This document shows positions 5,230 to 52,244 of a stretch of 64,000 bases of DNA, one piece after another. Under the pieces are notes generated by a model that was not told the origin of the DNA, did not search any database, and saw only the letters and a list, made by a program, of their open reading frames with translations. The first letter of the stretch is position 1. Every line of letters starts with the position of its first letter. Source of the DNA: Maribacter sp. (GTDB lineage Bacteria > Bacteroidota > Bacteroidia > Flavobacteriales > Flavobacteriaceae); the NCBI GenBank assembly GCA_020629285.1, contig JAHDDP010000015.1, positions 1 to 64,000 on the forward strand, read 5' to 3'. A program made the translations under genes and the position numbers.

Positions 5230-5637
5230 AATAATTTATTCAAGTTTATTTTAAATGTAGGTGGTTTTGTAATCCTTAAATAAAGTGATTATCAGAAAGC
5301 ATTTGTTATGAATCATGTTTATCTACTTTACGTCATAATTCTTATTTCTATTAATTATATGCATAGTGATTTAAAATCCATTGAATATGCTATAGTTTAT
5401 TTTTAAGTACTTTATTTTAAGTGTCTTATGTAATATTTAATACAGTATGGTTAAATTACGATGAGGTTGGTAAATCACCATATGTCTTTAATTTAAACCA
5501 TATCTTCTACATATGAAATCATTTCATTTATAGGATTAGTATAAATTTTATCATTTTTATTGTTCATGAATAATCTCCCAATTTTAGCTCAAGCAATACT
5601 AAGTAAATTGTGTATAAAAGGACAATTTAAGGTACTA
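5230..5637. other. 408-bp intergenic region upstream of the hybrid regulator
   Basis: No gene or RNA structure was recognised. It is AT-rich and must hold the promoter of the regulator gene. A weak AAACCATAT string occurs near 5495, partly like the motif seen upstream of other PUL genes (see 36341-36353 and 55681-55693). Confidence 0.4.
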
Positions 5638-8600
5638 ATGGCATCCGTAAAATTGAAGCGGTATGTCATACTTATCGTATGCTTATGTAGTCTTGTGGTA
5701 CAAGCTCAAGAAAATTTTTATTTTGATCAGATTGGTACTGATGATGGTCTTTCTCAAAGTGATGTTAACTGCATCTATCAAGATACGTATGGTTATATGT
5801 GGTTTGGTACACATGATGGTTTAAATAGATATGACGGCTATTCTTTTACCGTATTTAAACCAGATCAAAAAAGCACCAACATAAATAGTAATCTTATCTA
5901 TGCCATGACCGGTGACGATAAGGGAAATTTATGGATAGGTAGTACAGGTGACGGTCTGTTTTATTACAATAAAGAGAAAGAAACTTTTAAGCAATTTAAG
6001 TTCGACAAAGACGATGAATATAGTATTTCTAGTGATTATGTAACCAAACTATATATAGATAGTAAAAATAGATTGTGGGTTGCCACTAAAGAAGACGTCA
6101 ATATGGTAGACCTATCGGTATCTGTCGATAGTGTTAAGTTTCAAAAGTTCAAATTTGTAATTGAGGATATAGGGGGGCAACAAGACGGTAGTGTAATTAA
6201 CTCGATCTATGAAAATTCTGATGGCGAGTTGTTGTTAGGTGGTCATTTGGGTATATACCAGCTGAAACTTGATGCTCAGGGCAAATCTTATTTTAAACTA
6301 ATCAGCGATGAAATAGGTTTTGGTACGGAATCGGTTGGTGTAATAGCTCAAGACCGATATAATAAATTGATTATTGGTACTGGGCAAGGTCTATTTGTTC
6401 AAGGAAATGGGGAAGACGCTGAATTTATAAAAATCTCAGATGGTAAATACACATCATTGGCTTTTGATGACCAAAATCATATTTGGGCAGGTACCGACAA
6501 CGGGCTGTATTATTTTGATAATTCTTCTAGTTTAAAACTGCCTAGTTTAATAAAGTCGTTCAGGTATCGACCAGAAGATGAAAATGGTATTAGTAAAAAT
6601 GTTATAACCTCTTTATATATTGACCGAACAGGTATTTTATGGGTAGGTACCAATGGTGGTGGGGTAAACAAGTTTGATCCCAACAGAAAAAGTTTTAAGC
6701 ATGTTAAACGCGACTTAAGAAAAAATAGTCTTAGCTATGATAAAATTAGAGCAATTTTTGAAGATAGCAACGGTACACTTTGGGTAGGTACAGAAGGTGG
6801 TGGCTTAAATAGAACAGATACCGGTAAAGAGAAGTATTCCACCTTTACTTCAAATAACAAGTTGCGAAAAGTATTTGCGTTAGAGGAGATTACTTATAAA
6901 GGCAGAAAATATCTTTTAGAGGGCGGTCAAACTTATCCTTATTTATTTAGAATTGATATTACAAATCCTCAAAACAGTATTGCTGAAGAAATTGGTTTTG
7001 AGGGTCTGCAACGTAGTGTTTTTAGTTTGTTGAACGATTCGCATGATAATTTGTGGATAGGTACATATTCAGGCGGTTTATATCGATGGATAAAAGACGA
7101 TAACGGCGAATATTTAAAGCAGAACTTTCAAGAAAATTCTAATGGTCGTAATTCCTTATCAAACAATATAATTAGAAATATTTATGAAGATAGTAAGGGG
7201 AATATATGGATCGCTACAGGCGATGGTCTTAGTCAGTTGACCATAACCGAAAAGTACAAAGAACAACCGAAATTTAAAGTTTATAAGAACGAAAATGATA
7301 ACCCGTCTTCACTAAGCCATAATTACATATTATCTCTATTTGAGAGTAGAAAGGGAGAGCTTTGGGTGGGTACATTTGGTGGTGGATTGAATAAATTAAT
7401 TCCCGGTGAAAATGGTGAATCGGCTACTTTCAAAACTTATAGTATATCGCAAGGGTTGCCAAATAATGTCATTAAGGCAATTTTGGAAGATGAACAGGGA
7501 AAATTGTGGATTTCTACAAATAAAGGCTTGTCCATGTTCGATACCGAGAAAGAAGTTTTTAAAAACTTTGATGTAGCAGACGGTTTGCAAGACAGTGAGT
7601 TTCAAGAATTGGCTGCGGTAAAACGCAAGGATGGGGAATTGATTTTTGGTGGTATTAATGGTTTTAACGCATTTTATCCGAGAGAAATATACGATAACGA
7701 AACATCGCCTGAAACAGTGGTCACCAAGCTTTCGATTTTCAATGAGGAGATTGCCGTAGGTGAAGAAGTAAACGGTAGGGTTTTATTGGATAAGAATATA
7801 TCTGAAGTGAAAGATATTACACTGAATTATAGTGAAAATAGCTTTTCGTTCGAGTTTTCGTCATTACACTTTTCTGCACCAGAAAAGAATCAGTTTGCTT
7901 ACAAGCTAGAGGGTTTTGATACCGATTGGGTGTATACCGGTTCCGATAAAAGATTTGCCACTTACACGAACATAGAACCTGGTAATTATACCTTACAGGT
8001 GAAGTCGTCAAATAATGATGGCTTATGGGATACCACACCCTATAGATTAAACCTAACGGTTAAGCCGCCAATTTATAGAACTACAGTAGCTTATATCATT
8101 TACAGTTTGCTGTTTTTATTATTGCTCGCCGGTTTATGGAGATTTACAATCATCAGTAATTCTAAAAAGCATCAATTAGAATTGGAGTATTTGGAAAAAG
8201 AGAAGAATGATGAGTTACAGACCTTAAAACTTGATTTTTTCACCAATATATCCCATGAGTTTAAAACTCCCTTGACATTGATTAAGGCACCGTTGGAATA
8301 TTTGCTTAGCGGTAAAGACGATATGGAGGCATCTGGTTTAAAAGAGCAATATCAGCTCATGCATAAAAACACCAATTACCTGTTAAGATTGGTGAATCAA
8401 TTGTTAGATTTTAGAAAAATAAATCAAGGAAAAATGTCGTTGGTCGTAAGGCATACGGATATTGTTTTTTTCATTAAAGAAGTAGCAGAGCCCTTTCAGT
8501 TATTGGCTTTCAATAAATCGGTCAAGTTTAATATTGTTTCTTCAGAAGAACATTATAAAACCTATTTTGATCATAATGCTTTAGAAAAGGTGATTAATAA

Positions 8601-9837
8601 TCTGTTATCAAATGCATTCAAATTCACCCCAGAAGGAGGCGAGATTACCGTAGTGATCGATGTTGAGAAAGAGGAGTCGTCAGAAAAAGATAACGTGGTC
8701 ATAAAAGTGAAAGATACCGGCTTGGGAATTTCTGATGTTAAAAAGAATATCATATTCGAAAAATATTATACCGAGAAAGAAAATGAGAAAGTAAACTCTA
8801 AAGGCGTAGGTATTGGTCTAGCCTTTACCAAAAGTTTGGTAGAGCTACATTTAGGTAGTATTTCTGTTGATAATAATGAGGGTGGTGGTTCTTGTTTCAC
8901 GGTTATTTTACCAACGGATAAGCAAGCATATGAAGATGCAGAAGATATTAGTTGTAAAGAAATAACGGACAATGATTATCTGCTACGATCCTCTGAGGCT
9001 GAGTCACTGGCAATAGACTTAAATGATGAACTAGAAGATTACAATTTATCTAAAGTTAGGTCTAAAAATCCGGTGTTACTTATCGTAGACGACAATCCAG
9101 ATATTATAAAGTTCATTAAACAGGTAATGGGTAAGACCTACACGGTTTTTGAAGCCAATAATGGTGAACGTGGTATGGAGATTGCCAAAAAAGTATTGCC
9201 GAATATTATTATTACCGATGTAGTAATGCCTGTAATGGGTGGTATTGAGTTTTGTGAAACAATAAAAACTACCAATATCACCAGCCACATTCCGGTAATT
9301 ATGTTAACCGCTAAAACTTCGCAAGAAAGTGAGATAAAAGGTTTGTCGCACGGTGCCGATGCCTATTTAAAGAAGCCGTTCAATGTTCAGGTTTTAGAGC
9401 TTAAGGTAGCCAACATACTTAAAGATAGGGAAGAACTTCGTAAACGATTTAAAAAAGAAATTACGCTACAACCTAAGGAGGTTACCGTAACATCTTTAGA
9501 TGAAAAGTTTTTACAGCAAGCGGTTGAGATGGTAGAAAAGCACATGATGAATACCGATTTTAATGTAGAGATGCTGGTGAAGGAAATGGGACATAGTCGA
9601 AGTAACCTATATTTAAAGTTCAAAGAACTTACCGGTCTGTCATCAAGTGAATTTATTAGAAATATTCGTTTAAAACGAGCCATTCAACTATTGGATAACA
9701 GCGACTATTCCGTAAAGGAAATTATGTTTAGAACAGGGTTCAATACGGCATCTTATTTTTCTAAATGTTTTAAAAAAGAATTTGGTGTAGTACCCAGCGA
9801 GTATATTAAAAAAACCAAGGTAGAACAAGAATCATAA
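5638..9837 (+). CDS. Hybrid two-component system regulator (HTCS) of the PUL
   Basis: About 1,399 residues from the ATG at 5638, chosen because it begins a clean signal peptide (ASVKLKRYVILIVCLCSLVVQAQ); a longer frame opens at 5560. Order: signal peptide; periplasmic two-component-regulator propeller with repeated DNLWIGT-like blades and GLSQSDV at the start; Y_Y_Y domain; one membrane helix (about 814-840); histidine kinase with NISHEFKTPL (His873) and ATPase motif NNLLSNAFKFTPEGGEI; receiver with phospho-acceptor Asp1194 (IITDVVMP); C-terminal AraC-type HTH. This is the classic one-protein sensor and activator that binds oligosaccharides in the periplasm and switches on its PUL. It sits 13 nt ahead of two sulfatase genes, so it is probably co-transcribed with its targets. 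Confidence 0.95.
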   Translation: MASVKLKRYVILIVCLCSLVVQAQENFYFDQIGTDDGLSQSDVNCIYQDTYGYMWFGTHDGLNRYDGYSFTVFKPDQKSTNINSNLIYAMTGDDKGNLWIGSTGDGLFYYNKEKETFKQFKFDKDDEYSISSDYVTKLYIDSKNRLWVATKEDVNMVDLSVSVDSVKFQKFKFVIEDIGGQQDGSVINSIYENSDGELLLGGHLGIYQLKLDAQGKSYFKLISDEIGFGTESVGVIAQDRYNKLIIGTGQGLFVQGNGEDAEFIKISDGKYTSLAFDDQNHIWAGTDNGLYYFDNSSSLKLPSLIKSFRYRPEDENGISKNVITSLYIDRTGILWVGTNGGGVNKFDPNRKSFKHVKRDLRKNSLSYDKIRAIFEDSNGTLWVGTEGGGLNRTDTGKEKYSTFTSNNKLRKVFALEEITYKGRKYLLEGGQTYPYLFRIDITNPQNSIAEEIGFEGLQRSVFSLLNDSHDNLWIGTYSGGLYRWIKDDNGEYLKQNFQENSNGRNSLSNNIIRNIYEDSKGNIWIATGDGLSQLTITEKYKEQPKFKVYKNENDNPSSLSHNYILSLFESRKGELWVGTFGGGLNKLIPGENGESATFKTYSISQGLPNNVIKAILEDEQGKLWISTNKGLSMFDTEKEVFKNFDVADGLQDSEFQELAAVKRKDGELIFGGINGFNAFYPREIYDNETSPETVVTKLSIFNEEIAVGEEVNGRVLLDKNISEVKDITLNYSENSFSFEFSSLHFSAPEKNQFAYKLEGFDTDWVYTGSDKRFATYTNIEPGNYTLQVKSSNNDGLWDTTPYRLNLTVKPPIYRTTVAYIIYSLLFLLLLAGLWRFTIISNSKKHQLELEYLEKEKNDELQTLKLDFFTNISHEFKTPLTLIKAPLEYLLSGKDDMEASGLKEQYQLMHKNTNYLLRLVNQLLDFRKINQGKMSLVVRHTDIVFFIKEVAEPFQLLAFNKSVKFNIVSSEEHYKTYFDHNALEKVINNLLSNAFKFTPEGGEITVVIDVEKEESSEKDNVVIKVKDTGLGISDVKKNIIFEKYYTEKENEKVNSKGVGIGLAFTKSLVELHLGSISVDNNEGGGSCFTVILPTDKQAYEDAEDISCKEITDNDYLLRSSEAESLAIDLNDELEDYNLSKVRSKNPVLLIVDDNPDIIKFIKQVMGKTYTVFEANNGERGMEIAKKVLPNIIITDVVMPVMGGIEFCETIKTTNITSHIPVIMLTAKTSQESEIKGLSHGADAYLKKPFNVQVLELKVANILKDREELRKRFKKEITLQPKEVTVTSLDEKFLQQAVEMVEKHMMNTDFNVEMLVKEMGHSRSNLYLKFKELTGLSSSEFIRNIRLKRAIQLLDNSDYSVKEIMFRTGFNTASYFSKCFKKEFGVVPSEYIKKTKVEQES

Positions 9838-11684: not shown

Positions 11685-13364
11685 ATGAAAAAAGTCTTTA
11701 AAATTTTAACGTTCGCCTTGGTGTTTTCTTCTATCGCCTGTAACGAAAAATCGACAGATGGTAAAGAAGAAAAAAAACAGCCCAATATCATTTTCATTAT
11801 GGCAGATGACCATACTACTCAAGGTTTGGGCGTTTATGGTAGTAGGTTGGCATCTTTGAACCCTACTCCGACATTAGATAAGTTAGCAAATGAGGGTATG
11901 TTGATGGAGAATGTTTTTGTAAACAATTCTATTTGTGTTCCAAGTAGGGCAGCTATAATATCTGGGCAAAGAGCGCAAACAAGCGGAGTGTTAGATTTGG
12001 AAGGTGCGTTACCGCCAGCGAAACAATATTTGCCGAAGGAGATGAAAAGATTGGGCTACGAAACTGCAATTATCGGTAAGTGGCATTTACACGATGAACC
12101 TGCAGAATTTGACTATTACAAGGTGCTTCCGGTTCAAGGCAAATATTTTAATCCCGATTTTAGAGTGCGTGGAGAGCAAGAATGGCCAAACAATGTAGTG
12201 CAAACAGAAGGTCATTCTACTGATGTTATCACTGATAATACCATAGATTGGTTAGATAAGGGTAGGGACAAATCAAAGCCCTTCTTTTTAATGCATCATT
12301 ATAAAGCACCTCATGATGATTTTGAAAATGCTCCGCGTTATGATGATTATTTGTCAGATACCTTTATTCCAGAACCAGAGAGTTTATTTGATAATAAAAA
12401 CAATGGCTCGGTAGCTACTAGAGGTATGAACGATTCGCTTACGCGTATTATTGGTTCATCGGTTTCTAGACGAAATTTAATTCGTAATCAAGCCATGAAT
12501 ATTTATACCGATAGCTCTATTTACAAACAGTATAGAGATCAAAATACAATTGGGACAGATGAGCATAAAAAATGGCAGTTAACTCCTAAGGAAAAAGAGA
12601 TAACCTCAAAGGTGTATCAAGATTATTTAAAACGCTATTTGCGTTGTGTTAAAGGAGTAGATGATAATGTAAAAAGGCTGATTACATATTTGGAGGAAAA
12701 TGATTTGTTAGAGAACACGATTATTGTGTACACCGGTGATCAAGGTTTTATGTTAGGGGAACATGATTATATCGATAAAAGATGGATGTACGATGAATCT
12801 ATGCGTATGCCTTTCTTTATTCGTTATCCTGAGAAAATTAAAGCAGGTACACGTTCAGATGCTATGATTAATAATACGGATTTTGCTCCTACACTTATTG
12901 AACTAGCAGGTGGTAGCGCACCAGATTATATGCAAGGCAATAGTTTTAAATCAATTTTGGAAACAGGGGAGGAACCAGAAGACTGGCCGCAATCTACCTA
13001 TTATCGTTATTGGATGCATTTGGCGCACAGACATCAGAATCCGGCACATTTCGGTCTAAGAACCAAAGATTATAAGTTGATATTCTTTTACGGCAGGTAT
13101 TGGGTAGATACAGACGACTCCAACTCTGAATATAATAAAGCAAGCTGGGGTAATGATTTTACCAATAAAACACCAGTGGCTTGGGAGTTCTATGATTTAA
13201 AGAACGATCCCAAAGAAATGAACAATGCTTACAATGACCCTAAGTATAAAGAGGTAATAGCTAATTTAAAAGAAGAATTGGTGAAGGTGCGAGAAGAACT
13301 GAACGAAACCGATAAAAATTATCCGCACATACAAAAGGTCATAGACAAGCATTGGAATGATTAA
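11685..13364 (+). CDS. S1-family sulfatase lipoprotein
   Basis: 559 residues with lipoprotein signal ending SSIACNEKS. NIIFIMADDHTTQG gives the N-terminal metal ligands, CVPSR (Cys84) is the formylglycine site, then GKWHLHDE, HHYKAPHDDF and YTGDQGFMLGEHDYIDKRWMYDE. The overall pattern resembles the choline-sulfatase/iduronate-2-sulfatase-like branch. It lies 19 nt after the preceding sulfatase in the regulator-led transcript, and a clear terminator follows at 13397. The natural target is inferred to be a sulfated galactan oligosaccharide. No sulfatase-maturing enzyme is encoded in this window, so maturation must come from elsewhere. Confidence 0.93.
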   Translation: MKKVFKILTFALVFSSIACNEKSTDGKEEKKQPNIIFIMADDHTTQGLGVYGSRLASLNPTPTLDKLANEGMLMENVFVNNSICVPSRAAIISGQRAQTSGVLDLEGALPPAKQYLPKEMKRLGYETAIIGKWHLHDEPAEFDYYKVLPVQGKYFNPDFRVRGEQEWPNNVVQTEGHSTDVITDNTIDWLDKGRDKSKPFFLMHHYKAPHDDFENAPRYDDYLSDTFIPEPESLFDNKNNGSVATRGMNDSLTRIIGSSVSRRNLIRNQAMNIYTDSSIYKQYRDQNTIGTDEHKKWQLTPKEKEITSKVYQDYLKRYLRCVKGVDDNVKRLITYLEENDLLENTIIVYTGDQGFMLGEHDYIDKRWMYDESMRMPFFIRYPEKIKAGTRSDAMINNTDFAPTLIELAGGSAPDYMQGNSFKSILETGEEPEDWPQSTYYRYWMHLAHRHQNPAHFGLRTKDYKLIFFYGRYWVDTDDSNSEYNKASWGNDFTNKTPVAWEFYDLKNDPKEMNNAYNDPKYKEVIANLKEELVKVREELNETDKNYPHIQKVIDKHWND

Positions 13365-13501: not shown

Positions 13502-13555
13502 TTTTTGTGCAATTGGTTTTTGATTTTTGTGAAGACTACTTATAAACACAAAACT

Positions 13556-14047: not shown

Positions 14048-14053
14048 AACACA

Positions 14054-15583: not shown

Positions 15584-15608
15584 TAAAGAAACTGAACGAA
15601 AAAAGAAA

Positions 15609-16371: not shown

Positions 16372-16716
16372 TTATAATTGAAATATCTGTTCTAATGCAA
16401 TCCACTTTTCTCCTTTTTCAGCCCAAGGAAGTTCTTGCTGAAATTTCCACATTAGTTTTTCCCATTCTTGTACTTTAGGGTTTGTGGCATCCATATTAGC
16501 TTTTTTAATAGGGTCAAATGTCTCATCAACCTCCATAATCATGAACATTCTATTACCGGTCAGGTAAATCTGCATATCTATAATTCCGGCATCTTTAATA
16601 CTCTTGGTAATCTCTGGCCAGGCATTTCCCTTTGCATGGTAATCTTTATACTCAGCTATTAAATCGGGATTATCTTTTAAATCGCATGAAAAACAAAGTC
16701 TTTTTGAACTACTCAT
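16372..16716 (-). CDS. L-fucose/L-rhamnose mutarotase (RhaM-type)
   Basis: 114 residues, the normal length of the RhaM (PF05336) fold. Visible are the N-terminal LCFSCDLKD strand, a YKDYHAKGNAWPEI helix with the conserved His, and EWEKLMWKFQQELP near the C-terminus. The family interconverts alpha and beta anomers of L-rhamnose, L-fucose and related sugars. It is the last gene of a seven-gene operon, 11 nt after the FucP-like permease. Campylobacter jejuni has a related mutarotase (Cj0488) next to fucP, an SDR and a lactonase, so the arrangement supports a role on an L-sugar such as L-fucose or L-galactose, which differ only at C6. Confidence 0.85.
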   Translation of the reverse strand: MSSSKRLCFSCDLKDNPDLIAEYKDYHAKGNAWPEITKSIKDAGIIDMQIYLTGNRMFMIMEVDETFDPIKKANMDATNPKVQEWEKLMWKFQQELPWAEKGEKWIALEQIFQL

Positions 16717-16727
16717 AAATTAGCAAA

Positions 16728-18050
16728 TTAGTTGGTGTGATATTTTTTATAGACCGTTCTACCGTAAAAGGCAACTACACCAAGGCAGATTAGCGATAGT
16801 ATAAAAGAAAAGCGCATTTCTGTCACGCCCAGTATAATTATATCTTCATAGCCCACACCACCAAAATCTAGCATATAGCCTTGTAAATAGGGTAGTAGTG
16901 CACCACCAACAATGGCCATTACCAAAAAGGCAGCGCCAAATTTTGCATCTTCTCCTTGCCCTTCTAAAGCAATACCATAGATAGTTGGAAACATGATGGA
17001 CATAAATAATGAAGTAGCCACTAAGGAATAGATACCTAACATACCAGGCAAAAATATTGCCCCAAGTAAAGTCAGCATACCGCCTAAGCCAAAAAGCATT
17101 AATAATTTACCCGAATCTATCTTAGCCATAAGCGCAGTACCTATTGTTCTACCCACAAGAAAAACAATGTAACCTGCCAGTCCGTACCAAACGGCAGATT
17201 TTGCATCTATGCCCAAGGTTTCGGCATATTGGTACACATAGGTCCAACACATAATTTGCGCGCCTACATAAAAGGCCTGCGTAACCACCCCAAAAGCAAA
17301 TTTTGGTTGTTTCCATAAACGTTTAACCGAGTCTTTAAAAACAACCTTAGCTTCTTGATGTTTGTTTTGTGGCATTTTAACCACGCTGATTAACACGAAA
17401 AAAACAAGGACTACAACCCCTAAAAGCACATACGGATTTCTGATAATTTCTAGGTCAGATGTTCTAATGGCAGCCTTTGCACTTTCTGATAAGGTATCGT
17501 AAATAGTTGTCCCGTCTGCCGTAGTATCATCAGATTGTAAAGCGCCCAACACAAAATTCTGAGCCACCAATAAGCCTAAAATAGATCCCATGGGGTTAAA
17601 CATTTGTGCAAAGTTCAATCGTCTTGTTGCTGTTTCTTCGGCACCCATAGAAAGAATGTAGGGGTTAGAAGTAGTTTCTAAAAAAGCCAACCCGAAGGTA
17701 AGCACATATAATGCCGATAAGAAAAACGGATAGCTTTCATAAGCGGCTGCCGGGTAAAATAATAAGGCTCCCACTGCATAAAGAGCCAATCCCAAAAGCA
17801 CCCCTTTTTTATAAGAGTATTTGTTTACGAATAACGCTGCAGGTATGGCCATGGTAAAATATCCGCCATAAAAAGCCAATTGTACCAAAGATGCTTGTGT
17901 ATTAGTGAGTTCTAGTACTTTTTGAAAACCGCGAACCATAGGGTTGGTCATGTCATTTGCCAAGCCCCACAAAGCAAATAGCGAAGTAATCAAGATAAAA
18001 GGCACCAAAACAGATTTGGAAACTACGGGTATTTTTTCAGATGAATTCAT
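16728..18050 (-). CDS. fucP: Fucose/glucose/galactose:H+ symporter (FucP-like MFS)
   Basis: 440 residues, 12 predicted membrane helices, typical FGHS-family MFS length. It has the family-like segment LNFAQMFNPMGSILGLL near residue 142 and an early LTNTQASLVQLAFYGGYF region as in FucP/GluP. It would bring a released monosaccharide across the inner membrane with protons. It lies between the SDR (24 nt) and the mutarotase (11 nt). FucP of E. coli also accepts L-galactose and D-arabinose, which share the C2-C4 stereochemistry of L-fucose, so the permease fits either candidate sugar. Confidence 0.9.
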   Translation of the reverse strand: MNSSEKIPVVSKSVLVPFILITSLFALWGLANDMTNPMVRGFQKVLELTNTQASLVQLAFYGGYFTMAIPAALFVNKYSYKKGVLLGLALYAVGALLFYPAAAYESYPFFLSALYVLTFGLAFLETTSNPYILSMGAEETATRRLNFAQMFNPMGSILGLLVAQNFVLGALQSDDTTADGTTIYDTLSESAKAAIRTSDLEIIRNPYVLLGVVVLVFFVLISVVKMPQNKHQEAKVVFKDSVKRLWKQPKFAFGVVTQAFYVGAQIMCWTYVYQYAETLGIDAKSAVWYGLAGYIVFLVGRTIGTALMAKIDSGKLLMLFGLGGMLTLLGAIFLPGMLGIYSLVATSLFMSIMFPTIYGIALEGQGEDAKFGAAFLVMAIVGGALLPYLQGYMLDFGGVGYEDIIILGVTEMRFSFILSLICLGVVAFYGRTVYKKYHTN

Positions 18051-18074
18051 ATAGTGTGGTTGGTTAAGGTGAAT

Positions 18075-18869
18075 TTATTTTTCGGACAATAAAGAACGAT
18101 CCAGATGTACGTAGCCGCCATCAACGGTTATAAATTGCCCAGTGGTGTGCGATGATCTTTCGGAAATTGCGAATAATACGGCGTCTGATATTTCAAGCGG
18201 AGAAGTCATTCTATTTTCTAACGGAATGTTCTTAACGATAGATTGTAATTTCTCATCTCCGTTATCTAAACTATTGATCCAATTTTCATAGGCAGGCGTC
18301 CAGCTTTCGGCAATGATCAATGCGTTAGATCGTATGCCAAACGGAATCAAATCTACCGCCCATTCACGCGTTAAACCTAATACGCCACCTTTTGAAGCGG
18401 CATAGCCAGAGGTACCGCCCTGTCCCGTAAGTGCAACTTTCGAACCTACATTTAAAATGTTACCTTTTGCTTTTTTAAGATAGGGCAAACAAAATTTGGT
18501 CATGGCAAAAAAGCTCACCAAATTTAATTGTAACGAACGCATAAATTTTTCTATGTTATCGTCTAAACTCACTGTATCGTTTACGCCTACATTATTGATC
18601 AAGGCATCTATTTTACCATATTTATCACCAATTATTTTGGCAGCTTTTTCTATTTGGGCAACATCGGTTAAATCGGTCTTTACAAAAATGCTGTCCACAC
18701 CTTTGTCCTGTAGTTCTTTTTCATATTCGAATCCTCGGTCATTTCTACATACTATTACCGGTATAGCGCCTTCTTTTGCTAATTCTTCTACAATGGTTTG
18801 CCCAATACTGCCTCTTAAGCCTGCAGCGCCTGTTATAACTACTATTTTATCTTTTAGTCTTAAATCCAT
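18075..18869 (-). CDS. SDR sugar dehydrogenase (candidate L-fucose/L-galactose 1-dehydrogenase)
   Basis: 264 residues. The glycine motif is expanded (TGAAGLRGSIG, residues 13-23), NNVG follows near 92-95, and the active site is Ser143, Tyr156 and Lys160. ITVDGGYVHLDRS forms the C-terminal end. In the position between a FucP-like permease and a fuconolactonase-type amidohydrolase it matches the role of FucX (Cj0485), which oxidises L-fucose to the lactone with NAD(P). I infer that it performs the first step on L-galactose or L-fucose. The gene is 3 nt from the lactonase stop, which implies translational coupling. Confidence 0.85.
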   Translation of the reverse strand: MDLRLKDKIVVITGAAGLRGSIGQTIVEELAKEGAIPVIVCRNDRGFEYEKELQDKGVDSIFVKTDLTDVAQIEKAAKIIGDKYGKIDALINNVGVNDTVSLDDNIEKFMRSLQLNLVSFFAMTKFCLPYLKKAKGNILNVGSKVALTGQGGTSGYAASKGGVLGLTREWAVDLIPFGIRSNALIIAESWTPAYENWINSLDNGDEKLQSIVKNIPLENRMTSPLEISDAVLFAISERSSHTTGQFITVDGGYVHLDRSLLSEK

Positions 18870-18872
18870 ACT

Positions 18873-19700
18873 TTATAAATTATAAAATTCCACCGCGTTG
18901 TTACCCATTATTTTAGCCTTTTCATCGGTGCTAAAATTTGTAATATAATCGATGATCAGTTCTTTTACTTGAGCGTAACTGCCAGCAACTAAACACACCG
19001 GCCAGTCTGAGCCAAATAAACATCTATCAGCTCCAAAAGAGGCTAAAACAATATCTAGATATCTCATAATATCGTTAGGCTTCCAATTGTTATAATCGGC
19101 TTCCGTTATCATGCCCGATAATTTGCAATACACATTTTCGTGTGATGCTATTTCTTTCATCAATGTTGCCCATCCATCATAAAAACCATCTTTTATATAG
19201 GGTTTTGCTATATGGTCAATCACAAATTTTTGATTTGGAAATTGCTTTACAAACTCTAAAGTTGCCCCAAGTTGATGCGGAAATATTAGAATGTCGTAGG
19301 TGTAGCCATATTGCTCTAATAGTTTAATTCCGTTTAAAAAAGGTTTTCTCAATAAGAAGTTTGGGTCGGGTTCGCCTTGTACCACATGCCTAAATCCTTT
19401 GATAATTGTATTGTTACTAAACTTTTCCAAATCCTTTTTAATGGTAGAAGCACGAAAATCTATCCAACCAACAACGCCTTTTATAAAGCTATTTTCTGTT
19501 GCTAAATCAATTAAAAAATCGGTTTCTTCTATGGTTTGGTCCGCTTGTACGGCAACACATCCATCAATCTCATTTACCTTTAATTCGGTAATAAGATCTC
19601 TTGGCATAAAATCTCTTCTAATAACAGCCATGTCATCATCTATCCAAGCATGCTTTTGAGGTTCATACTGCCAAAAATGTTGATGTGCATCTATCGTCAT
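18873..19700 (-). CDS. Amidohydrolase-2 family sugar lactonase (L-fuconolactonase type)
   Basis: 275 residues of the amidohydrolase superfamily lactonase group. The HxH metal motif is at His6/His8 (IDAHQHFW); further family marks are GFRHVVQGEPDP, IFPHQL, FVIDHIAKP and the late Asp in LFGSDWPV. These are the characteristic positions of L-fuconolactonase and L-rhamnonolactonase. It should open a 1,4- or 1,5-lactone to the aldonate in the cytoplasm. Its place between UxaB and a sugar dehydrogenase fits lactone hydrolysis as the second step of an oxidative pathway (L-galactono- or L-fucono-lactone). Confidence 0.9.
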   Translation of the reverse strand: MTIDAHQHFWQYEPQKHAWIDDDMAVIRRDFMPRDLITELKVNEIDGCVAVQADQTIEETDFLIDLATENSFIKGVVGWIDFRASTIKKDLEKFSNNTIIKGFRHVVQGEPDPNFLLRKPFLNGIKLLEQYGYTYDILIFPHQLGATLEFVKQFPNQKFVIDHIAKPYIKDGFYDGWATLMKEIASHENVYCKLSGMITEADYNNWKPNDIMRYLDIVLASFGADRCLFGSDWPVCLVAGSYAQVKELIIDYITNFSTDEKAKIMGNNAVEFYNL

Positions 19701-19717
19701 AGTCAGTTTGTCTTTTG

Positions 19718-21184
19718 TTATTTTTGGTTTATTAGGTTTATTAGGTTTATGGCTTCTTCAAATCCGTACTGTTCTATATTGCTGAGATTATGGGTTACGT
19801 TGCTCGTTAATCCTGATATCTGGTTGAGGTCTTCATTCCATATATCGGTATTGCCCAATATTTGTGAGGTCAATGTATTTAGATCGATATCATTTTCTCT
19901 GAATTGCTGCCAAGTGTTGGAGAAGTATTCAAGTATTGAAGACTTATCGTTTAGGTCTATCTTTTCATTATTAAAACTCCCTTCATAAAAGCGTAGCAAG
20001 GCGCTTAATGCAAATGTGATGTTTGCGGGCAGACTTCCTTTTATTTCTAGGTAATCTTTTAATGTAGGAAGCAAGCGTGTCACAAATTTTGAGGTACTGT
20101 TCAATGAAATACTAATCAATTTGTGTTCTAAAGCAGGGTTTTTAAACCTTGTAAGCACATCATTGGCAAATTGTTGTTTGTAATCTTGAGGAAAATCTAG
20201 CGTAATCAGTACCTCGTTCATCAAAACATTTTTAATGAATTCGACTACGTTAACATTGTCCATGGCATCTTTAACCAAACGTTCACCTAAAAGGTATGCA
20301 ACGGGAACCATTGTCGTATGTGCGCCATTTAGAATACGAACTTTTAAATTTCTATAAGAATCCAAGTCGGTTACCAATTCAATATTTAAATCAGTTTCTT
20401 GAAAAGGAAATTCGGCTAAAATATCTTCTGGTCCTTCTATTAACCAACTATGATAGAGTTCACCCGCAACGGCAAGTTGATCTGTATAGTCAAGTTTAGC
20501 TTCAATTTGTTCAATTTTATCTTTCGGGTACCCTGAAACTATACGGTCTACCAAGGTGTTATAAAAAGTACAGGAATGAACGATCCAATACTTAAAAGCT
20601 TTACCAAGATGCCACTGTTGTGCATATTGTAAAATACAATCCTTTAATGCCTCTCCATTTTTCTCAATAAGCTCAACAGGTAAGAACATACAACCTTTAT
20701 CCGCGTCGCCTTTAAAATGTTTAAAGCGATGAAAAAGCCAAACTGTCAGCTTTGCAGGAAACTCTTTTGGCGGATTGCTGTCAAAGGTATCATCGGTATT
20801 GAAAACAATTCCCGCTTCCGTAGTGTTCGATATTATAAAACGTAAATCAGGAAGCTCGGCAAGTGACAAATAAGCATCCCACTCCGTATACGGATTTACG
20901 ACTTTTTGCACACAATCTACCAATGTTAATTCTTGAACGAACTTGTCATTTGCATACCCTTCAAGATTAACCGAAAATAGACCGTCTTGCGATTTTAGCG
21001 CTTTATAATCACCACGTTCTGTAGGTTTTACGACGGCAACACCTGCGTTGAAGTTTGTAGCGCTATTTATTTTTTGAATACTAATATCTACAAACGCCCT
21101 TAAAAAGTTGCCACCGCCAAATTGCATTACTTTGATAGGTAATGATTTACGGCTTTGAAATGCGCTACTATTTAATACTTTCAT
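19718..21184 (-). CDS. uxaB: Tagaturonate reductase (UxaB, mannitol dehydrogenase family)
   Basis: 488 residues from the ATG at 21184 (MKVLNSSAF), chosen over an in-frame codon 33 nt upstream because it leaves the normal 8-nt gap after UxaA and gives the UxaB N-terminus. The landmarks closely match E. coli UxaB: QFGGGNFLRAFVD near 18-31, FIISNTTEAGI, CTFYNTLVDRIVSGYP, and the catalytic KVRILNGAHT segment. UxaB interconverts D-tagaturonate and D-altronate with NAD. It follows UxaA and an L-galactonate-dehydrogenase-like MDR. No UxaC (uronate isomerase) is present, so tagaturonate probably comes from L-galactonate rather than galacturonate. An L-fucose pathway has no evident need for this enzyme. 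Confidence 0.92.
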   Translation of the reverse strand: MKVLNSSAFQSRKSLPIKVMQFGGGNFLRAFVDISIQKINSATNFNAGVAVVKPTERGDYKALKSQDGLFSVNLEGYANDKFVQELTLVDCVQKVVNPYTEWDAYLSLAELPDLRFIISNTTEAGIVFNTDDTFDSNPPKEFPAKLTVWLFHRFKHFKGDADKGCMFLPVELIEKNGEALKDCILQYAQQWHLGKAFKYWIVHSCTFYNTLVDRIVSGYPKDKIEQIEAKLDYTDQLAVAGELYHSWLIEGPEDILAEFPFQETDLNIELVTDLDSYRNLKVRILNGAHTTMVPVAYLLGERLVKDAMDNVNVVEFIKNVLMNEVLITLDFPQDYKQQFANDVLTRFKNPALEHKLISISLNSTSKFVTRLLPTLKDYLEIKGSLPANITFALSALLRFYEGSFNNEKIDLNDKSSILEYFSNTWQQFRENDIDLNTLTSQILGNTDIWNEDLNQISGLTSNVTHNLSNIEQYGFEEAINLINLINQK

Positions 21185-21192
21185 ATACTTTT

Positions 21193-22845
21193 TTAAAGTG
21201 ATATTCCCCTTTTCCAAGGAATAAAGTCATCTTGACCTAAACGAACCGCGTTAGGTGTTTTTTCTCCACTTGCTACGGCGATAATATAATCCAGCAATTC
21301 TTCTCCCTTACTTTCAATGGTAGCTTTTGCCTCGATAATACCGCCAGTATTGAAATCTATGATATCTGCCATACGCTCGCTAAGTATGGTATTACTTGAT
21401 ATTTTGATTGTTGGGGCAATAGGGTTACCGGTGGGTGTACCCAAACCTGTAGTAAAGCAAATTATATTACAACCAGATCCTGCAAGAGCAGTAGTACTTT
21501 CAACATCATTACCTGGTGTACACAGTAAATTCAAGCCTTTCTTTGTTACCGGTTCTGTATAATCGAGAACATCGGTAACAATTGAGGAGCCTCCTTTTTT
21601 AGCAGCTCCGGCAGATTTCATTGCGTCGGTAATGAGTCCGTCTTTTATATTACCTGGAGACGGATTATTCTCAAATCCTGATCCCACTTCTTCGGCACGT
21701 TTGGAATAGGTTTTCATTAACCCTGCAAATTTTTCTGCATTTTCTTTGGTTTGGCACCTATTTAAAAGTTCTTGTTCTACACCGTTCAGTTCTGGAAATT
21801 CTGCAAGCACCGTTGAGGCTCCAAGAGTAACGAGCATATCTGAAACATGCCCCAAGGCAGGGTTGGCAGATATACCTGAAAACCCGTCTGAACCACCACA
21901 TTCCAAGCCGAGGGTAAGTTTGCTAAGTGGTGCTTTGCTACGGTTGGTTTTGTCAGCTTCTATTAAACCTAAAAAGGTATGTTTAACTGCGTCTTCTATA
22001 AAATGTTTTTCGCTTTTACTTTGCTGCTGCTCAAGAATGACCAAGGGTTTAGAAAACTGAGCATCCCTTCTTTTAATGGCATCTTCCAGTATAGGAATCT
22101 GAGCGTTTTGACAGCCAAGACTTAATACGGTAGCACCGGCTACATTTGGGTTGGTAATATAACCCGCTAAAAGATTGCAAAGCGTATCGCTATCTTGCCT
22201 TATACCTCCACAACCACCATCATGGTTTAAAAATTTAATGCCGTCTACGTTAGGGAAAACCTGTTCGTCCGTATTGGGGATTTCTGGTTTTATTATATCA
22301 CTATTTAGGAATGTTTCTTTACTTTCCTGGTTTTTATAATGTGCAACCAAGGTTTCCGTAGAAATAATATCTGCAGCAGAGGTTTTGTATCCTAAGGGTT
22401 TTAACAATGCTGTTTTCAATACATCCACATTTCTATTTTCACAAAAAACCAAAGGGATTACCAACCAATAATTTGCAGTACCAACGCTACCATCTTTTCT
22501 GTGGTAACCCATGAAAGTTCGGTCTTTAAAATTACTGATATCCGGTGGTGTAAATTTCCAATGTTGTTCCGCTACTTGATAGCTGGCCGCTGCATGGACC
22601 AAATTCTGAGTAGTAATTGCCTCCCCAATTTGAATGGGTACGAGAGCCTTACCAACAATAGAACCATACATATATACTAAGGCATCCTTTTCAATAGGGT
22701 AGAGGGCAAATTTGTGTTTGGCCTTCACCTTTTTTGGGATAGGAATGGTTACGTTTTTATGAATTATATGCGCACCTTCTGGTATATCCTGTAAGGCAAC
22801 AAGAATATTATCTTTTGGATGAATGTGTAAAAATCTTTTATCCAT
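21193..22845 (-). CDS. uxaA: Altronate dehydratase (UxaA family)
   Basis: 550 residues with an N-terminal SAF domain (about 1-95) followed by the large UxaA dehydratase domain; full length for fused UxaA. GYHRKDGSVGTANYWLVIP starts the catalytic domain and NHDGGCGG (His208, Cys212) is a likely metal-site segment. It would dehydrate D-altronate to 2-keto-3-deoxy-D-gluconate (KDG). UxaA-family proteins also occur in the C. jejuni L-fucose locus (Cj0482/0483), probably as an aldonate dehydratase, so L-fuconate is the main alternative substrate. It lies 63 nt after the MDR dehydrogenase and 8 nt before uxaB. Confidence 0.92.
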   Translation of the reverse strand: MDKRFLHIHPKDNILVALQDIPEGAHIIHKNVTIPIPKKVKAKHKFALYPIEKDALVYMYGSIVGKALVPIQIGEAITTQNLVHAAASYQVAEQHWKFTPPDISNFKDRTFMGYHRKDGSVGTANYWLVIPLVFCENRNVDVLKTALLKPLGYKTSAADIISTETLVAHYKNQESKETFLNSDIIKPEIPNTDEQVFPNVDGIKFLNHDGGCGGIRQDSDTLCNLLAGYITNPNVAGATVLSLGCQNAQIPILEDAIKRRDAQFSKPLVILEQQQSKSEKHFIEDAVKHTFLGLIEADKTNRSKAPLSKLTLGLECGGSDGFSGISANPALGHVSDMLVTLGASTVLAEFPELNGVEQELLNRCQTKENAEKFAGLMKTYSKRAEEVGSGFENNPSPGNIKDGLITDAMKSAGAAKKGGSSIVTDVLDYTEPVTKKGLNLLCTPGNDVESTTALAGSGCNIICFTTGLGTPTGNPIAPTIKISSNTILSERMADIIDFNTGGIIEAKATIESKGEELLDYIIAVASGEKTPNAVRLGQDDFIPWKRGISL

Positions 22846-22908
22846 AAATTCGTTTACAAGCGTTTTTGAAATAATACCAAATTAGTTGCATTCTATTTTA
22901 TATCAAAT

Positions 22909-23916
22909 TTAGAAAGTGACCATGGCTTTAATCACCCCGGTTTCAGGTTTTAACCAAGAATCAAAATTGGCAATCATTTCTGTGTAATGTACGGTATGCG
23001 TAACAAAAGAAGCTATGGGAAATTGGTCAATAACATGGATTATATATTCAAAATCTGCCACGGTTGCATTTCTACTACACATAATGGTAGATTCTTTTGC
23101 ATGTATTGCCGGGTGGTTAAAAGTTAAATCTCCTTTTGACAAACCTACCAATACATATCGCCCCCCATGTGCCATATAATTTGGTCCGCTTTCCAAGGCA
23201 AATTTATTACCGGAGGCATCGAAAACAGCTGTGGCTAAATCGTTGTTGGTAATTTCGTTCACTTTTGCGACCGCATCATCATCAGCTTTGACAATAAAGT
23301 CTACCCCGATTTTGTCTTTGGCATAATCTAAACGTTGTTGGTTGACATCAATGGCGATTACTTTGGCACCTTGTAATTGTGCCAATTTCATAATTCCGAT
23401 CCCAATAGGACCACAACCAATAACCGCAACGGTTTCTCCTTTTGTAATTTGTGCTCTTCGTAATGCATGCGCACCAATGGCCAAGGGTTCTACAATAGCC
23501 ATTTGTTCAAGACTCAGGTTGTTTGCCGGTAACAATAAATCTATGGGTACCGTTATAATCTCTTGCATACCACCATCGGTATGTACTCCCAGTACTTTAA
23601 TATTGGTACAACAATTAGTTTTACCTGCTTTACAGGCAACACAGTTATTGCAACTTACATATGGCATTACCACTACTTTATCACCTTGCTTCAACCCTTT
23701 TTCATTTGGCGCTATGGAAATGATCTCTGCAGCCAATTCATGACCTAAAATTCGCGGGTATTTAAAAAACGCCTGGTTACCGCCGTAAGCATGTAAATCG
23801 GTACCACAGATACCGACCCTTTTTATTTTTAAAGTCGCCTCCTTTGCTTTTGCTATTGGAGCTTCTTTTTCTTTAAGGGTAAATGTGCCAGGTTCTTCGC
23901 AAGTAATATATTTCAT
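22909..23916 (-). CDS. Zinc-dependent MDR dehydrogenase (candidate L-galactonate 5-dehydrogenase)
   Basis: 335 residues of the zinc alcohol-dehydrogenase family. Catalytic zinc ligands Cys37 (GICGTD) with His59/Glu60 (GHE) are present, the structural-zinc cysteines are Cys89/92/95/103, and the nucleotide motif is GCGPIG (167-172). The substrate-side stretch HAYGGNQAFFKYPR resembles the YjjN/LgoD-type branch, which oxidises L-galactonate to D-tagaturonate. As first gene of the operon and directly ahead of UxaA/UxaB it completes a chemically continuous route. Alternatives are another polyol or aldonate dehydrogenase, including a fuconate-pathway enzyme. A terminator-like hairpin separates it from the GH29 gene upstream. 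Confidence 0.85.
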   Translation of the reverse strand: MKYITCEEPGTFTLKEKEAPIAKAKEATLKIKRVGICGTDLHAYGGNQAFFKYPRILGHELAAEIISIAPNEKGLKQGDKVVVMPYVSCNNCVACKAGKTNCCTNIKVLGVHTDGGMQEIITVPIDLLLPANNLSLEQMAIVEPLAIGAHALRRAQITKGETVAVIGCGPIGIGIMKLAQLQGAKVIAIDVNQQRLDYAKDKIGVDFIVKADDDAVAKVNEITNNDLATAVFDASGNKFALESGPNYMAHGGRYVLVGLSKGDLTFNHPAIHAKESTIMCSRNATVADFEYIIHVIDQFPIASFVTHTVHYTEMIANFDSWLKPETGVIKAMVTF

Positions 23917-24002: not shown

Positions 24003-25559
24003 TTATATGTTATCTGCCATTGTTATCTCTAAAGAGAAGGCATGGTCACCAATCTTCTTACCAAGATTATCTATAACAAGTCCGTTTTTGGTCTGTTGGT
24101 ATTCAATTTCGCTATCACTACCTAATAGTTTGATAGATTTGATATCCATACCCTCTACGTTATCATTGTCCAATGCTAATGAACTAATGGTGACGGCATT
24201 ATTTTCTGGCCATGCTAAAAGAATAGCATATAGCTTATTATCTTTTTTCGTAAACCTAATATCTTGAGAAGTGAATCCTTTGTTGTCACCTTCAGAGTGG
24301 TGTCCTTTTTTAACTTCCGTAGGTCCTTCTCCAAAAACGGTCCAATATTCCGTGTCATAAATGGCATCACCATTTACTTTTAACCAATCTCCAATTTCAA
24401 AAAGAATTTTTTGTTGATCTTCAGGAATGCTACCATCCGCTTTTGGACCAATATTTAAAAGAAGGTTTCCGTTTTTAGATACGATATCAACTAGGTCGTC
24501 TACTAATTCATTCGTGTTTTTAGACTCCCAATTGGTAACATAACCCCAAGAGTTTTTACCAATAGAAGTATCTGTTTGCCAAGGCAGTTTTCTAATTCCC
24601 GGTAATTTTCCTCTTTCTAAATCGTAAATTACAGTGCCTTCAGGAAAAGCTTCATGGTCAAAGTTTTTGTCATTGATAACCACTTCCTTGCCCCATTCCA
24701 ATCCTTTATTATAGTAATATGCCGCTAGTTTTGGTCTGTATTCTTTAAAATCGGGTATGTCCAAATAAAAATCGAACCATAGAATATCTGGCTGATAATT
24801 GTCGATTAAATCCACCGTTCTGTTCCACCATAACTCTTTGAATTCTTCTGAAACAGGTTCGGTAAGGTCTTTTCCCTTTGTGGAATACAGATCTGCAAAA
24901 TCAGGGTCAGTAGTATCGAAATGATCTTTTTTATTGTAGAAAGACCAGTTGAAAGCGTAGTGTGAAGATGCTCCCATAATTAGTCCAGCTTTACGGCCTT
25001 CCTTAAACAATTCTCCTAGAATATCTTTTTTCGGTCCCATGTCTACAGCATTCCATCGTGTCGTATTAGACTTGTACATGGCAAAACCATCATGGTGGTC
25101 AGCTACGGGAATAACGTACTTGGCGCCAGATTTTTTGAATATATCTATCCATTCGGTAGCATTGAATTTCTCACCTTTAAATTGAGGGATAAAATCTTTG
25201 TAGCCAAAATTCTTTTGGTCACCGTATTTATCTTTGTGATATAGGTACACTTCATTGGGTCCTAAATGTTGATGTTTAAGTTGAGCGGTAAAAGTAGCGG
25301 AATCCATATACATACTTCTTGGGTACCACTCAGAGGTAAATGCCGGTACGGCATAAGCGCCCCAATGAATAAAAATGCCAAACTTTTGATCGTTGAACCA
25401 ATCTGGGTCTTTATAGTTTTCTTTTATAGATTCCCAATTAGGCTCAAAACGTTTTGTTGTTTCAATAGTTTCGTTGTCTGCTTTTTCGGTTTTTGATTTA
25501 CAGCTTACAACTAATAGTATGAAGAGTAAAGGATAAATAAAATATTTGGTCATATTCAT
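24003..25559 (-). CDS. GH29 alpha-L-fucosidase/alpha-L-galactosidase-type lipoprotein
   Basis: 518 residues. Lipoprotein signal ends VVSCKS (Cys20). The GH29 barrel shows FGIFIHWGAYAVPAF, VADHHDGFAMY (155-163), TRWNAVDM and the nucleophile motif DILWFDFYLD (Asp263), followed by NGNLLLNIGPKADG. GH29 enzymes retain configuration and release alpha-L-fucose; some PUL members from porphyran-type loci have been described as alpha-L-galactosidases. Because it shares strand and leader region with the L-sugar oxidation operon, I infer that it supplies that operon's substrate. The gene is divergent from the sulfatase at 25757, with a candidate motif exactly midway (25653-25665). Confidence 0.92.
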   Translation of the reverse strand: MNMTKYFIYPLLFILLVVSCKSKTEKADNETIETTKRFEPNWESIKENYKDPDWFNDQKFGIFIHWGAYAVPAFTSEWYPRSMYMDSATFTAQLKHQHLGPNEVYLYHKDKYGDQKNFGYKDFIPQFKGEKFNATEWIDIFKKSGAKYVIPVADHHDGFAMYKSNTTRWNAVDMGPKKDILGELFKEGRKAGLIMGASSHYAFNWSFYNKKDHFDTTDPDFADLYSTKGKDLTEPVSEEFKELWWNRTVDLIDNYQPDILWFDFYLDIPDFKEYRPKLAAYYYNKGLEWGKEVVINDKNFDHEAFPEGTVIYDLERGKLPGIRKLPWQTDTSIGKNSWGYVTNWESKNTNELVDDLVDIVSKNGNLLLNIGPKADGSIPEDQQKILFEIGDWLKVNGDAIYDTEYWTVFGEGPTEVKKGHHSEGDNKGFTSQDIRFTKKDNKLYAILLAWPENNAVTISSLALDNDNVEGMDIKSIKLLGSDSEIEYQQTKNGLVIDNLGKKIGDHAFSLEITMADNI

Positions 25560-52220: not shown

Positions 52221-52244
52221 CTTTTAATTTTTTTGTTCTTTAAA

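Follow-up and report, generated by a model that had tools for sequence, protein, structure and literature searches.

In a 64,000-nucleotide stretch of DNA from Maribacter sp. (GenBank assembly GCA_020629285.1, contig JAHDDP010000015.1, positions 1 to 64,000; hereafter the window), a minus-strand operon at positions 16,372 to 23,916 probably forms the sugar-processing end of a locus for porphyran, a red-algal galactan, and would convert L-galactose to 2-keto-3-deoxygluconate (KDG). We put the probability of this reading at roughly 0.83. Outside the cytoplasm, a sulfatase (11685-13364) and a family 29 glycoside hydrolase (GH29; 24003-25559) would free L-galactose from porphyran oligosaccharides. 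A short-chain dehydrogenase/reductase (SDR) would convert L-galactose to its lactone and a lactonase would convert the lactone to L-galactonate, from which a medium-chain dehydrogenase/reductase (MDR) would form D-tagaturonate, UxaB D-altronate, and UxaA KDG. A kinase and a 2-keto-3-deoxy-6-phosphogluconate (KDPG) aldolase encoded elsewhere would carry KDG to pyruvate and glyceraldehyde-3-phosphate. This is the route given in the initial annotation, and it is the best-supported reading; on sequence alone, UxaA may act before or after MDR and UxaB. Every substrate, like the order of the last three steps, is a prediction from sequence. The operon genes are as follows.

22909..23916, minus strand: zinc MDR dehydrogenase, probable L-galactonate 5-dehydrogenase (LgoD-like); Pfam ADH_N and ADH_zinc_N.
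21193..22845, minus strand: UxaA-family dehydratase, probable D-altronate dehydratase; Pfam GD_AH_second and GD_AH_C.
19718..21184, minus strand (open reading frame listed as 19718-21217): UxaB tagaturonate reductase; NF002969.
18873..19700, minus strand: amidohydrolase (Amidohydro_2), probable L-galactono/L-fucono-1,5-lactonase; closest PDB structures, with NF052480 below its cut-off.
18075..18869, minus strand: SDR, probable L-galactose/L-fucose 1-dehydrogenase; NF052481.
16728..18050, minus strand: FucP-type MFS permease; TIGR00885.
16372..16716, minus strand: RhaM-family mutarotase; Pfam PF05336.

All seven genes originally described were recovered on one strand from the open reading frame list and the family searches, in an order that runs from high to low coordinates. 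Their spacing is as tight as had been claimed, with 63 bp between the MDR gene and uxaA, 8 bp from uxaA to the preferred start of uxaB, 17 bp from uxaB to the lactonase gene, and 3, 24, and 11 bp at the lactonase-SDR, SDR-FucP, and FucP-RhaM junctions. The UxaB reading frame was listed from a TTG codon (21217), and its alignment with E. coli UxaB begins at residue 12, an ATG at 21184, which is the preferred start. The size of the unit required amendment. Upstream of the MDR gene, at a distance of 86 bp and in the same orientation, is the GH29 gene, beyond which the next gene is divergent; the predicted transcription unit therefore probably holds eight genes instead of seven, with GH29 likely the first. 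A promoter pattern that we tried had 0 matches in the window compared to 4.9 expected by chance and was uninformative.

NCBIfam and Pfam searches returned the enzyme families that had been named for the seven genes. UxaB scored 622.8 bits on the tagaturonate reductase model NF002969 (cut-off, 359) and is 41% identical to E. coli UxaB, compared to only 22% for E. coli UxuB. UxaA is 33% identical to E. coli UxaA (264 bits), and the galactarate dehydratase model TIGR03248 reached 251.1 in the profile search of the operon, below its cut-off of 730.85. When compared to four E. coli MDR proteins, the operon MDR was closest to LgoD (41% identity, 282 bits), followed by RspB (32%, 157 bits), YdjJ (28%, 139 bits), and YdjL (24%); it is LgoD-like by resemblance. 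Its residues C37, H59, E60, C89, C92, C95, and C103, which we take to be zinc ligands, were invariant in 10 of 10 aligned rows. The SDR passed the L-fucose dehydrogenase model FucosDh, NF052481 (349.4; cut-off, 300), a result that identifies its family and not its substrate. Its top NCBIfam model was NF006384 (384.4), which has no named function, its closest PDB structures were 4gkb, 4glo, and 4gvx (238 bits), and it carries a YAASK motif at 156. FucP scored 517.6 on TIGR00885, above the cut-off of 280.4. The lactonase scored 266.6 on the L-fucono-1,5-lactonase model NF052480, below the cut-off of 400, and was closest to structures 4dlf, 4dnm, and 4do7 (174 bits). The RhaM-type protein matched Pfam PF05336 with 111.6 bits and the NCBIfam L-rhamnose mutarotase model TIGR02625 with 24.1, below its cut-off of 99.6.

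The surroundings of the operon point to porphyran. By closest structure or by Pfam, the window contains the porphyran-locus set of a porphyranase-type GH16, an L-galactose-6-sulfatase, an alpha-L-galactosidase of GH29, and a SusC/D pair. The features around the operon are as follows.

24003..25559, minus strand: GH29 with a lipoprotein-like N-terminus (by eye), probable exo-alpha-L-galactosidase; Pfam PF01120 and closest PDB structures.
11685..13364, plus strand: sulfatase, probable exo-L-galactose-6-sulfatase, convergent with the operon; closest PDB structures 7lha/7lj2.
46417..47262, minus strand: GH16, porphyranase-like; closest PDB structure the beta-porphyranase 4awd (288 bits), with beta-agarase C at 75.
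34980..36323, plus strand: GH16, porphyranase-like; closest PDB structure 4awd (162 bits), then porphyranases B and A.
36495..38060, plus strand: second GH29; Pfam PF01120; closest PDB structure 7ljj (266 bits), next 4ni3 (238).
32098..35019, plus strand: GH2 glycosidase; Pfam GH2 N, middle, and TIM-barrel domains.
40097..41299, plus strand: GH43-clan protein of 400 amino acids (Pfam PF04616, 60.5 bits), presumably a GH117 (3,6-anhydro-L-galactosidase), a name suggested by its size and context.
50679..55538, minus strand: SusD and SusC-like pair; Pfam SusD_RagB and SusD-like_3; Plug and CarbopepD_reg_2.
5560..9837, plus strand: hybrid two-component regulator; Reg_prop, Y_Y_Y, HisKA, HATPase_c, Response_reg, and HTH_18.

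The closest structures of the GH29 upstream of the operon were 7snk (438.5 bits), 7ljj (433.3), and 7lnp (431.1), with the next GH29 structure, 9lxl, approximately 140 bits lower (291.9). As described in the text of PMC12316285, 7snk and 7ljj are the porphyran exo-alpha-L-galactosidase BpGH29; the PDB names 7snk an alpha-L-fucosidase. The sulfatase scored 608 bits with the exo-L-galactose-6-sulfatase structures 7lha and 7lj2, compared to 369 for 5g2v, an N-acetylglucosamine-6-sulfatase. Porphyran is described as containing L-galactose-6-sulfate (PMC10033563), so L-galactose is the expected monosaccharide of a locus that holds this sulfatase homologue and porphyranase-like GH16 enzymes. An origin of the sugar in agar or porphyran had been proposed initially, and the porphyran side of that link is supported by the GH29, the sulfatase, and the two GH16 genes. 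Beyond the window, P450, ferredoxin reductase, alcohol dehydrogenase, and esterase genes lie at 69.9-74.6 kb of C45, the contig of which the window is part. They make up most of the 6-O-methyl-galactose gene set described in PMC10033563, the comparison covering these four genes. Both L034 and L092 (Zobellia russellii) have, next to the operon, genes that by eye read as this set.

We examined a sample of 60 relatives that included the genome of the window. The MDR was found at an E value of 1e-60 or better in 16 of these, and nine (the window's own genome, G003, G010, G017, G021, G025, G028, G035, and G036) have MDR, UxaA, and UxaB in the same order, the contig of G035 ending inside UxaB. This indicates that the gene arrangement is not due to chance. 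A GH29 of at least 72% identity (E value of 1e-100 or better) was present in exactly these nine relatives. It was found in 0 of the 51 others, that is, in neither the 7 with the MDR but without the UxaA/UxaB operon nor the 44 without the MDR at 1e-60. The check on GH29 co-occurrence suggested at the outset was therefore positive nine times out of nine. Because the relatives are related to one another, this is one association and not nine independent ones. The GH29 gene is 40 to 55 kb from the operon in G003, G017, and G025, and a sulfatase homologue was found in the same nine relatives plus G030 (10/60).

A wider survey covered 112 distinct loci with an MDR of at least 44% identity. The 117 loci collected were the window, 15 loci of relatives, the best 80 of 577 loci from a scan of named genomes with an MDR alignment, and 21 of 33 from a class sample, in which 33 of 395 genomes had a match and 12 with an MDR below 44% identity were left out; five duplicates (L030, L031, L035, L039, and L141) were removed. 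Labels were assigned by BLAST on one strand, within 8 kb and then 9 kb of the MDR gene, at a minimum query coverage of 40%, raised to 50% for kinase, aldolase, and aldo-keto reductase (AKR), and the context counts for GH29, sulfatase, GH16, GH117, and GH95 covered the whole stretch around each locus. Close relatives are over-represented among the loci, which are not independent, so P values from these counts are no more than indicative, and several loci end at contig ends. Of the 112 loci, 58 encode UxaB on the strand of the MDR gene and no more than 9 kb from it, and the order of the operon genes is kept across genera. A GH29 of at least 65% identity was present in 19 of the 58 stretches with UxaB versus 3 of the 54 without, and a sulfatase of at least 55% identity in 11 versus 0. 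Conversely, a GH95 of the L038 kind was found in 0/58 versus 5/54, and the FAH hydrolase belonging to the diketo route for L-fucose in 0/58 versus 8/54, UxaB and FAH never occurring together.

A PfkB kinase and a KDPG-type aldolase were encoded within 9 kb of the MDR in 13 of the 58 loci with UxaB and in 1 of the 54 without it, the latter (L134) on a contig of 12,594 bases. These two genes lie between the MDR gene and uxaA in L056 (Maribacter), L085 (Wenyingzhuangia), and L098 (Flagellimonas onchidii). The L056 aldolase scored 381.8, over its curated cut-off of 275; the L056 kinase passes no cut-off, its best score, 485.6 where 700 is required, being with a model for the kinase portion of a fused KDPG aldolase/kinase, which makes "KDG kinase" a putative name. 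As stated initially, neither enzyme is encoded in the Maribacter window. Elsewhere in the genome, a PfkB-type kinase gene and an Eda aldolase gene are adjacent on C34, and a further Eda is encoded on C91. The C34 pair is predicted to be the KDG kinase and KDPG aldolase; its aldolase passes the Pfam cut-off, and neither protein reaches an NCBIfam cut-off. Taken together, the gene content and order, the family memberships, the co-occurrence with L-galactose-releasing enzymes, and the kinase and aldolase genes beside the cluster in some relatives are what was observed directly.

These counts also bear on whether the operon serves L-fucose instead, with the SDR, lactonase, FucP, and mutarotase handling that sugar, UxaA acting as an L-fuconate dehydratase, and the MDR and UxaB acting later. 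The SDR and FucP each pass the model named for their L-fucose counterpart, and a like front end stands beside a 2-keto-3-deoxyfuconate (KDF)-dehydrogenase-like SDR and FAH in 8 of the 112 loci, but those loci and the UxaB loci do not overlap, and the operon contains neither KDF dehydrogenase nor FAH hydrolase, the genes of the non-phosphorylative L-fucose pathway. The kinase and KDPG aldolase near UxaB would be of no use to a 6-deoxy product, which lacks an O6 to phosphorylate, and the GH29 is nearest an alpha-L-galactosidase in a porphyran-like locus. No FucI match was found in the genome, which is 83% complete, nor was any close FAH match, only partial FAH-domain matches at 34-37%. We consider an L-fucose operon very unlikely. 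The eight FAH-type loci (L102:10001-16052, L104:10001-16046, L108:8301-15780, L112, L145, L150, L155, and L159) contain MDR, KDF-dehydrogenase-like SDR, FAH, lactonase, and SDR genes, with FucP or RhaM in some; they may be the L-fucose version of the same front end and may serve both sugars. The UxaA proteins of L108 and L112 are candidates for a UxaA-type L-fuconate dehydratase.

We also asked which of the proteins separate L-fucose, L-galactose, and galacturonate loci in trees, which were quick, were made without bootstrap, and excluded UxaA and UxaB proteins under 380 amino acids, MDR proteins under 300, and SDR proteins under 230 or below 45% identity. Galacturonate was represented by 13 "galA" loci of relatives, 7 with UxaC in the stretch and the remainder so named by likeness. 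The UxaA and UxaB of the operons fall apart from the galacturonate-type UxaA (13 rows) and UxaB (12 rows); the operon UxaA proteins form one starred group and the UxaB proteins two groups, and one further row (L102) falls among the 13 galA UxaA rows. The SDR and MDR trees were rejected as discriminators, the former because SDR groups of the two cluster types interleave and the latter because MDR proteins linked to UxaB, linked to FAH, and standing alone do not group separately (the UxaB label changes 13 times).

The UxaA and UxaB trees speak against UxaA and UxaB working mainly on D-galacturonate and lying beside L-sugar genes by accident. The initial annotation had argued that galacturonate was an unlikely source since no UxaC was present. 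That holds for the window; the genome has a single UxaC match, at C108:2252-3634, with neighbors read by eye as a TRAP transporter. In favor of a galacturonate role, the operon UxaA is the only GD_AH_C match in the genome, and of the two Mannitol_dh_C genes the one besides uxaB lies on C34 and matches UxaB at only 24% identity, over part of the length. Nevertheless, galacturonate-type UxaA and UxaB of relatives are separate from the operon lineages and operon order is kept across genera, which makes the accidental arrangement very unlikely and leaves the earlier conclusion about galacturonate standing on different grounds.

Several observations weigh against an L-galactose operon. The one UxaC in the genome means that galacturonate could share UxaA and UxaB, and at 83% completeness absences from the genome are weak evidence. 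No GH29 of at least 65% identity was found in 39 of the 58 UxaB stretches, and neither porphyranase-type GH16 (1/58 versus 0/54) nor GH117-like genes (3/58 versus 2/54) were associated with UxaB, so most UxaB clusters do not have the whole porphyran set alongside. Tamlana fucoidanivorans, to judge by its name a fucoidan degrader, has two UxaB-type clusters. In G036, the GH29 gene beside the operon (G036:C12:326376-327914) has one in-frame TAG; other GH29 copies are present there, one at 72%. E. coli FucP is described as taking L-galactose much less well than L-fucose (PMC13406643). The UxaA of FAH clusters L108 (8301-9965) and L112 is the sister of operon UxaA, outside the galacturonate-type UxaA proteins, and the MDR is also found in FAH clusters and alone. 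Finally, SDR proteins from FAH clusters and from UxaB clusters are intermingled in the tree, with L102 and L104 forming the sister branch of the window's group (support, 90; not starred), and the front end alone therefore does not indicate L-galactose.

In four of the 58 UxaB loci (L063, L064, L085, and L100), an AKR occupies the SDR slot, and AKR and SDR were never found in one locus. The L064 protein, the one of these four AKRs that was compared, was closest in the PDB to the plant L-galactose dehydrogenase (81.7 bits), with IolS at 80.5, and is 26-33% identical to the five AKRs matched from clusters of the Phocaeicola vulgatus type. A Paraburkholderia AKR is reported to take D-arabinose, L-fucose, and L-galactose (PMC6336799), and IolS is only about 1 bit behind, so the AKR swap favors L-galactose and does not prove it; as a proof it was set aside.

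The same sugar could also be processed in a different order. UxaA would act first and make 2-keto-3-deoxy-L-galactonate (L-KDGal), the MDR would oxidize and UxaB reduce its C5 to give KDG, and L-galactose would join the 3,6-anhydro-L-galactose route at that intermediate. The UxaA/GarD superfamily is described as including an L-fuconate dehydratase and another member suspected of being an L-galactonate dehydratase (PMC6336799), which would allow dehydration before C5 inversion. The sister relationship of operon UxaA to the FAH-type UxaA of L108 and L112, apart from the galacturonate type, fits this order as well, but the operon UxaB proteins are also apart from galacturonate UxaB though the same reaction is expected of them, and tree separation thus proves little. 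In Luteolibacter LG18, moreover, the substrates assayed with LguD, LguC, and LguB were L-galactonate, tagaturonate, and altronate, and the order there is said to follow E. coli (PMC12632266). A second MDR gene in the Maribacter genome (C45:82588-83604, near the contig end), 30% identical to the operon MDR, lies beside a second GH117-like gene, the place of the predicted L-KDGal 5-dehydrogenase described for Aquimarina (PMC10163077). We therefore regard a UxaA-first order as unlikely. A broader scheme also appears improbable to us. In it, the L-sugar operon of marine flavobacteria would be modular. A shared front end, made up of an LgoD-like MDR, a lactonase, an SDR or AKR, a mutarotase, and FucP, would be paired for L-galactose with UxaA-UxaB (KDG kinase and KDPG aldolase being optional) and for L-fucose with KDF dehydrogenase and FAH. 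In the L-galactose form, UxaA would act first, so that the two L-sugars of porphyran and agar would converge on L-KDGal.

The core reactions of the preferred L-galactose-to-KDG route are prior art, established according to PMC12632266 in E. coli, P. vulgatus, and Luteolibacter LG18. The E. coli LgoD-UxaB-UxaA enzymes are 41%, 41%, and 33% identical to those of the operon; unlike the operon, the E. coli route starts from L-galactonate, and its three genes are at three places and have no sugar front end. The LG18 lguABCDEF cluster encodes a dual L-glucose/L-galactose pathway, and its disruption mutants have growth defects on L-galactose (PMC12632266). Matched by described function, it is like the operon in that a single cluster supplies the enzyme of the MDR step (the L-gluconate/L-galactonate dehydrogenase LguD), the tagaturonate reductase LguC, and the altronate dehydratase LguB for a route to KDG. 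It differs in beginning with LguA, which is kin to AKR-type L-galactose dehydrogenases and inactive on L-fucose, and in having its aldolase in the cluster (PMC12632266), whereas the front end of the operon consists of SDR, lactonase, FucP, and mutarotase, with GH29 in the unit. P. vulgatus (BVU_0219 and BVU_0222), as cited in PMC12632266, likewise has an oxidative L-galactose route via tagaturonate. In six clusters of this type (L164 to L169, a set chosen by anatomy and partly by eye), an AKR and an amidohydrolase are near the MDR in 6/6, a FucP-like protein in 4/6, and a RhaM-like protein in 4/6. Unlike the operon, these clusters have an AKR and not an SDR, and L164 has no adjacent UxaA/UxaB among the open reading frames listed; the operon MDR is 34% identical to that of L164, and the amidohydrolases of the two are 21% identical. 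The AKR-family L-galactose dehydrogenase of the P. vulgatus and LG18 kind of pathway thus has an SDR in its place in the window.

Other known systems also share features with the operon or the window. Halomonas loci predicted for L-fucose, L-fuconate, and L-galactonate are described as combining oxidative L-fucose genes with lgoD, uxaA, and either uxaB or uxaF (PMC5507952); unlike the operon, they have a TRAP transporter and belong to another phylum, and L-galactose is never named in that paper (0 occurrences). This prediction suggests that loci of this type could serve both L-fucose and L-galactose. The non-phosphorylative L-fucose pathway of the Xanthomonas/Burkholderia type shares a sugar 1-dehydrogenase and a lactonase of the same families and differs in that the operon has UxaB instead of KDF dehydrogenase and FAH hydrolase. 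The porphyran locus of Bacteroides plebeius, as described in PMC12316285, resembles the window in its porphyranase, exo-L-galactose-6-sulfatase, exo-alpha-L-galactosidase GH29, and GH2. The account examined stops at the freed monosaccharides, and the words dehydrogenase, altronate, and fucose have 0 occurrences in the main text. What varies in Maribacter is a different first enzyme, a lactonase, permease, and mutarotase of its own, GH29 in the unit, and the porphyran locus around it. In the literature searched, which left most subscription journals outside, we found no published SDR/lactonase/FucP/mutarotase front end in a porphyran locus and no SDR-type operon in marine flavobacteria.

Other features were observed in and around these loci. 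Nine open reading frames of the window from 9851 to 46409 read as sulfatases, six by Pfam/PDB search and three (9851, 25757, and 28996) by eye. At 13505-16328, convergent with the operon, are in a row genes for a GlcG-like protein (by eye), a Lactonase-propeller and Dabb protein, and an SDR, and the same trio adjoins the operon of Z. russellii L092 with 77-83% identity. An FG-GAP repeat protein of 1111 amino acids that also has an ASPIC/UnbV domain is encoded at 47269-50604, between the SusD and GH16 genes. The operons of L030, L031, and L032 are directly preceded by a gene for a homologue of the two-component regulator (53-54%). In L056, L057, L058, L065, L079, L099, and L103, another kind of GH29 (37-41% to that of the window), whose specificity may differ, is encoded between UxaB and the lactonase. 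In L033, L037, and L096 (G007, G013, and G034), MDR, lactonase, SDR, and FucP have no adjacent UxaA/UxaB and have neighbors read by eye as enolase-superfamily and RraA-like genes; each of these genomes has a single UxaA elsewhere, of the galacturonate type. L049 (G006, same genus) has UxaA (69%) and UxaB (57%) of the operon lineage with no MDR at 1e-60.

In the passages of the porphyran and agar literature that were examined, accounts cover the released sugars (PMC12316285) and 6-O-methyl-galactose (PMC10033563), and the fate of L-galactose is not described; the operon supplies candidate genes for it. Relatives of the operon are found in genera with cultured strains, such as Zobellia, Maribacter, and Wenyingzhuangia. 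Annotations of L-fucose dehydrogenase, fuconolactonase, FucP, and altronate dehydratase in such loci should be treated with caution, as they may mean L-galactose use, and we suggest as a marker that UxaB in the cluster would indicate L-galactose and FAH hydrolase L-fucose.

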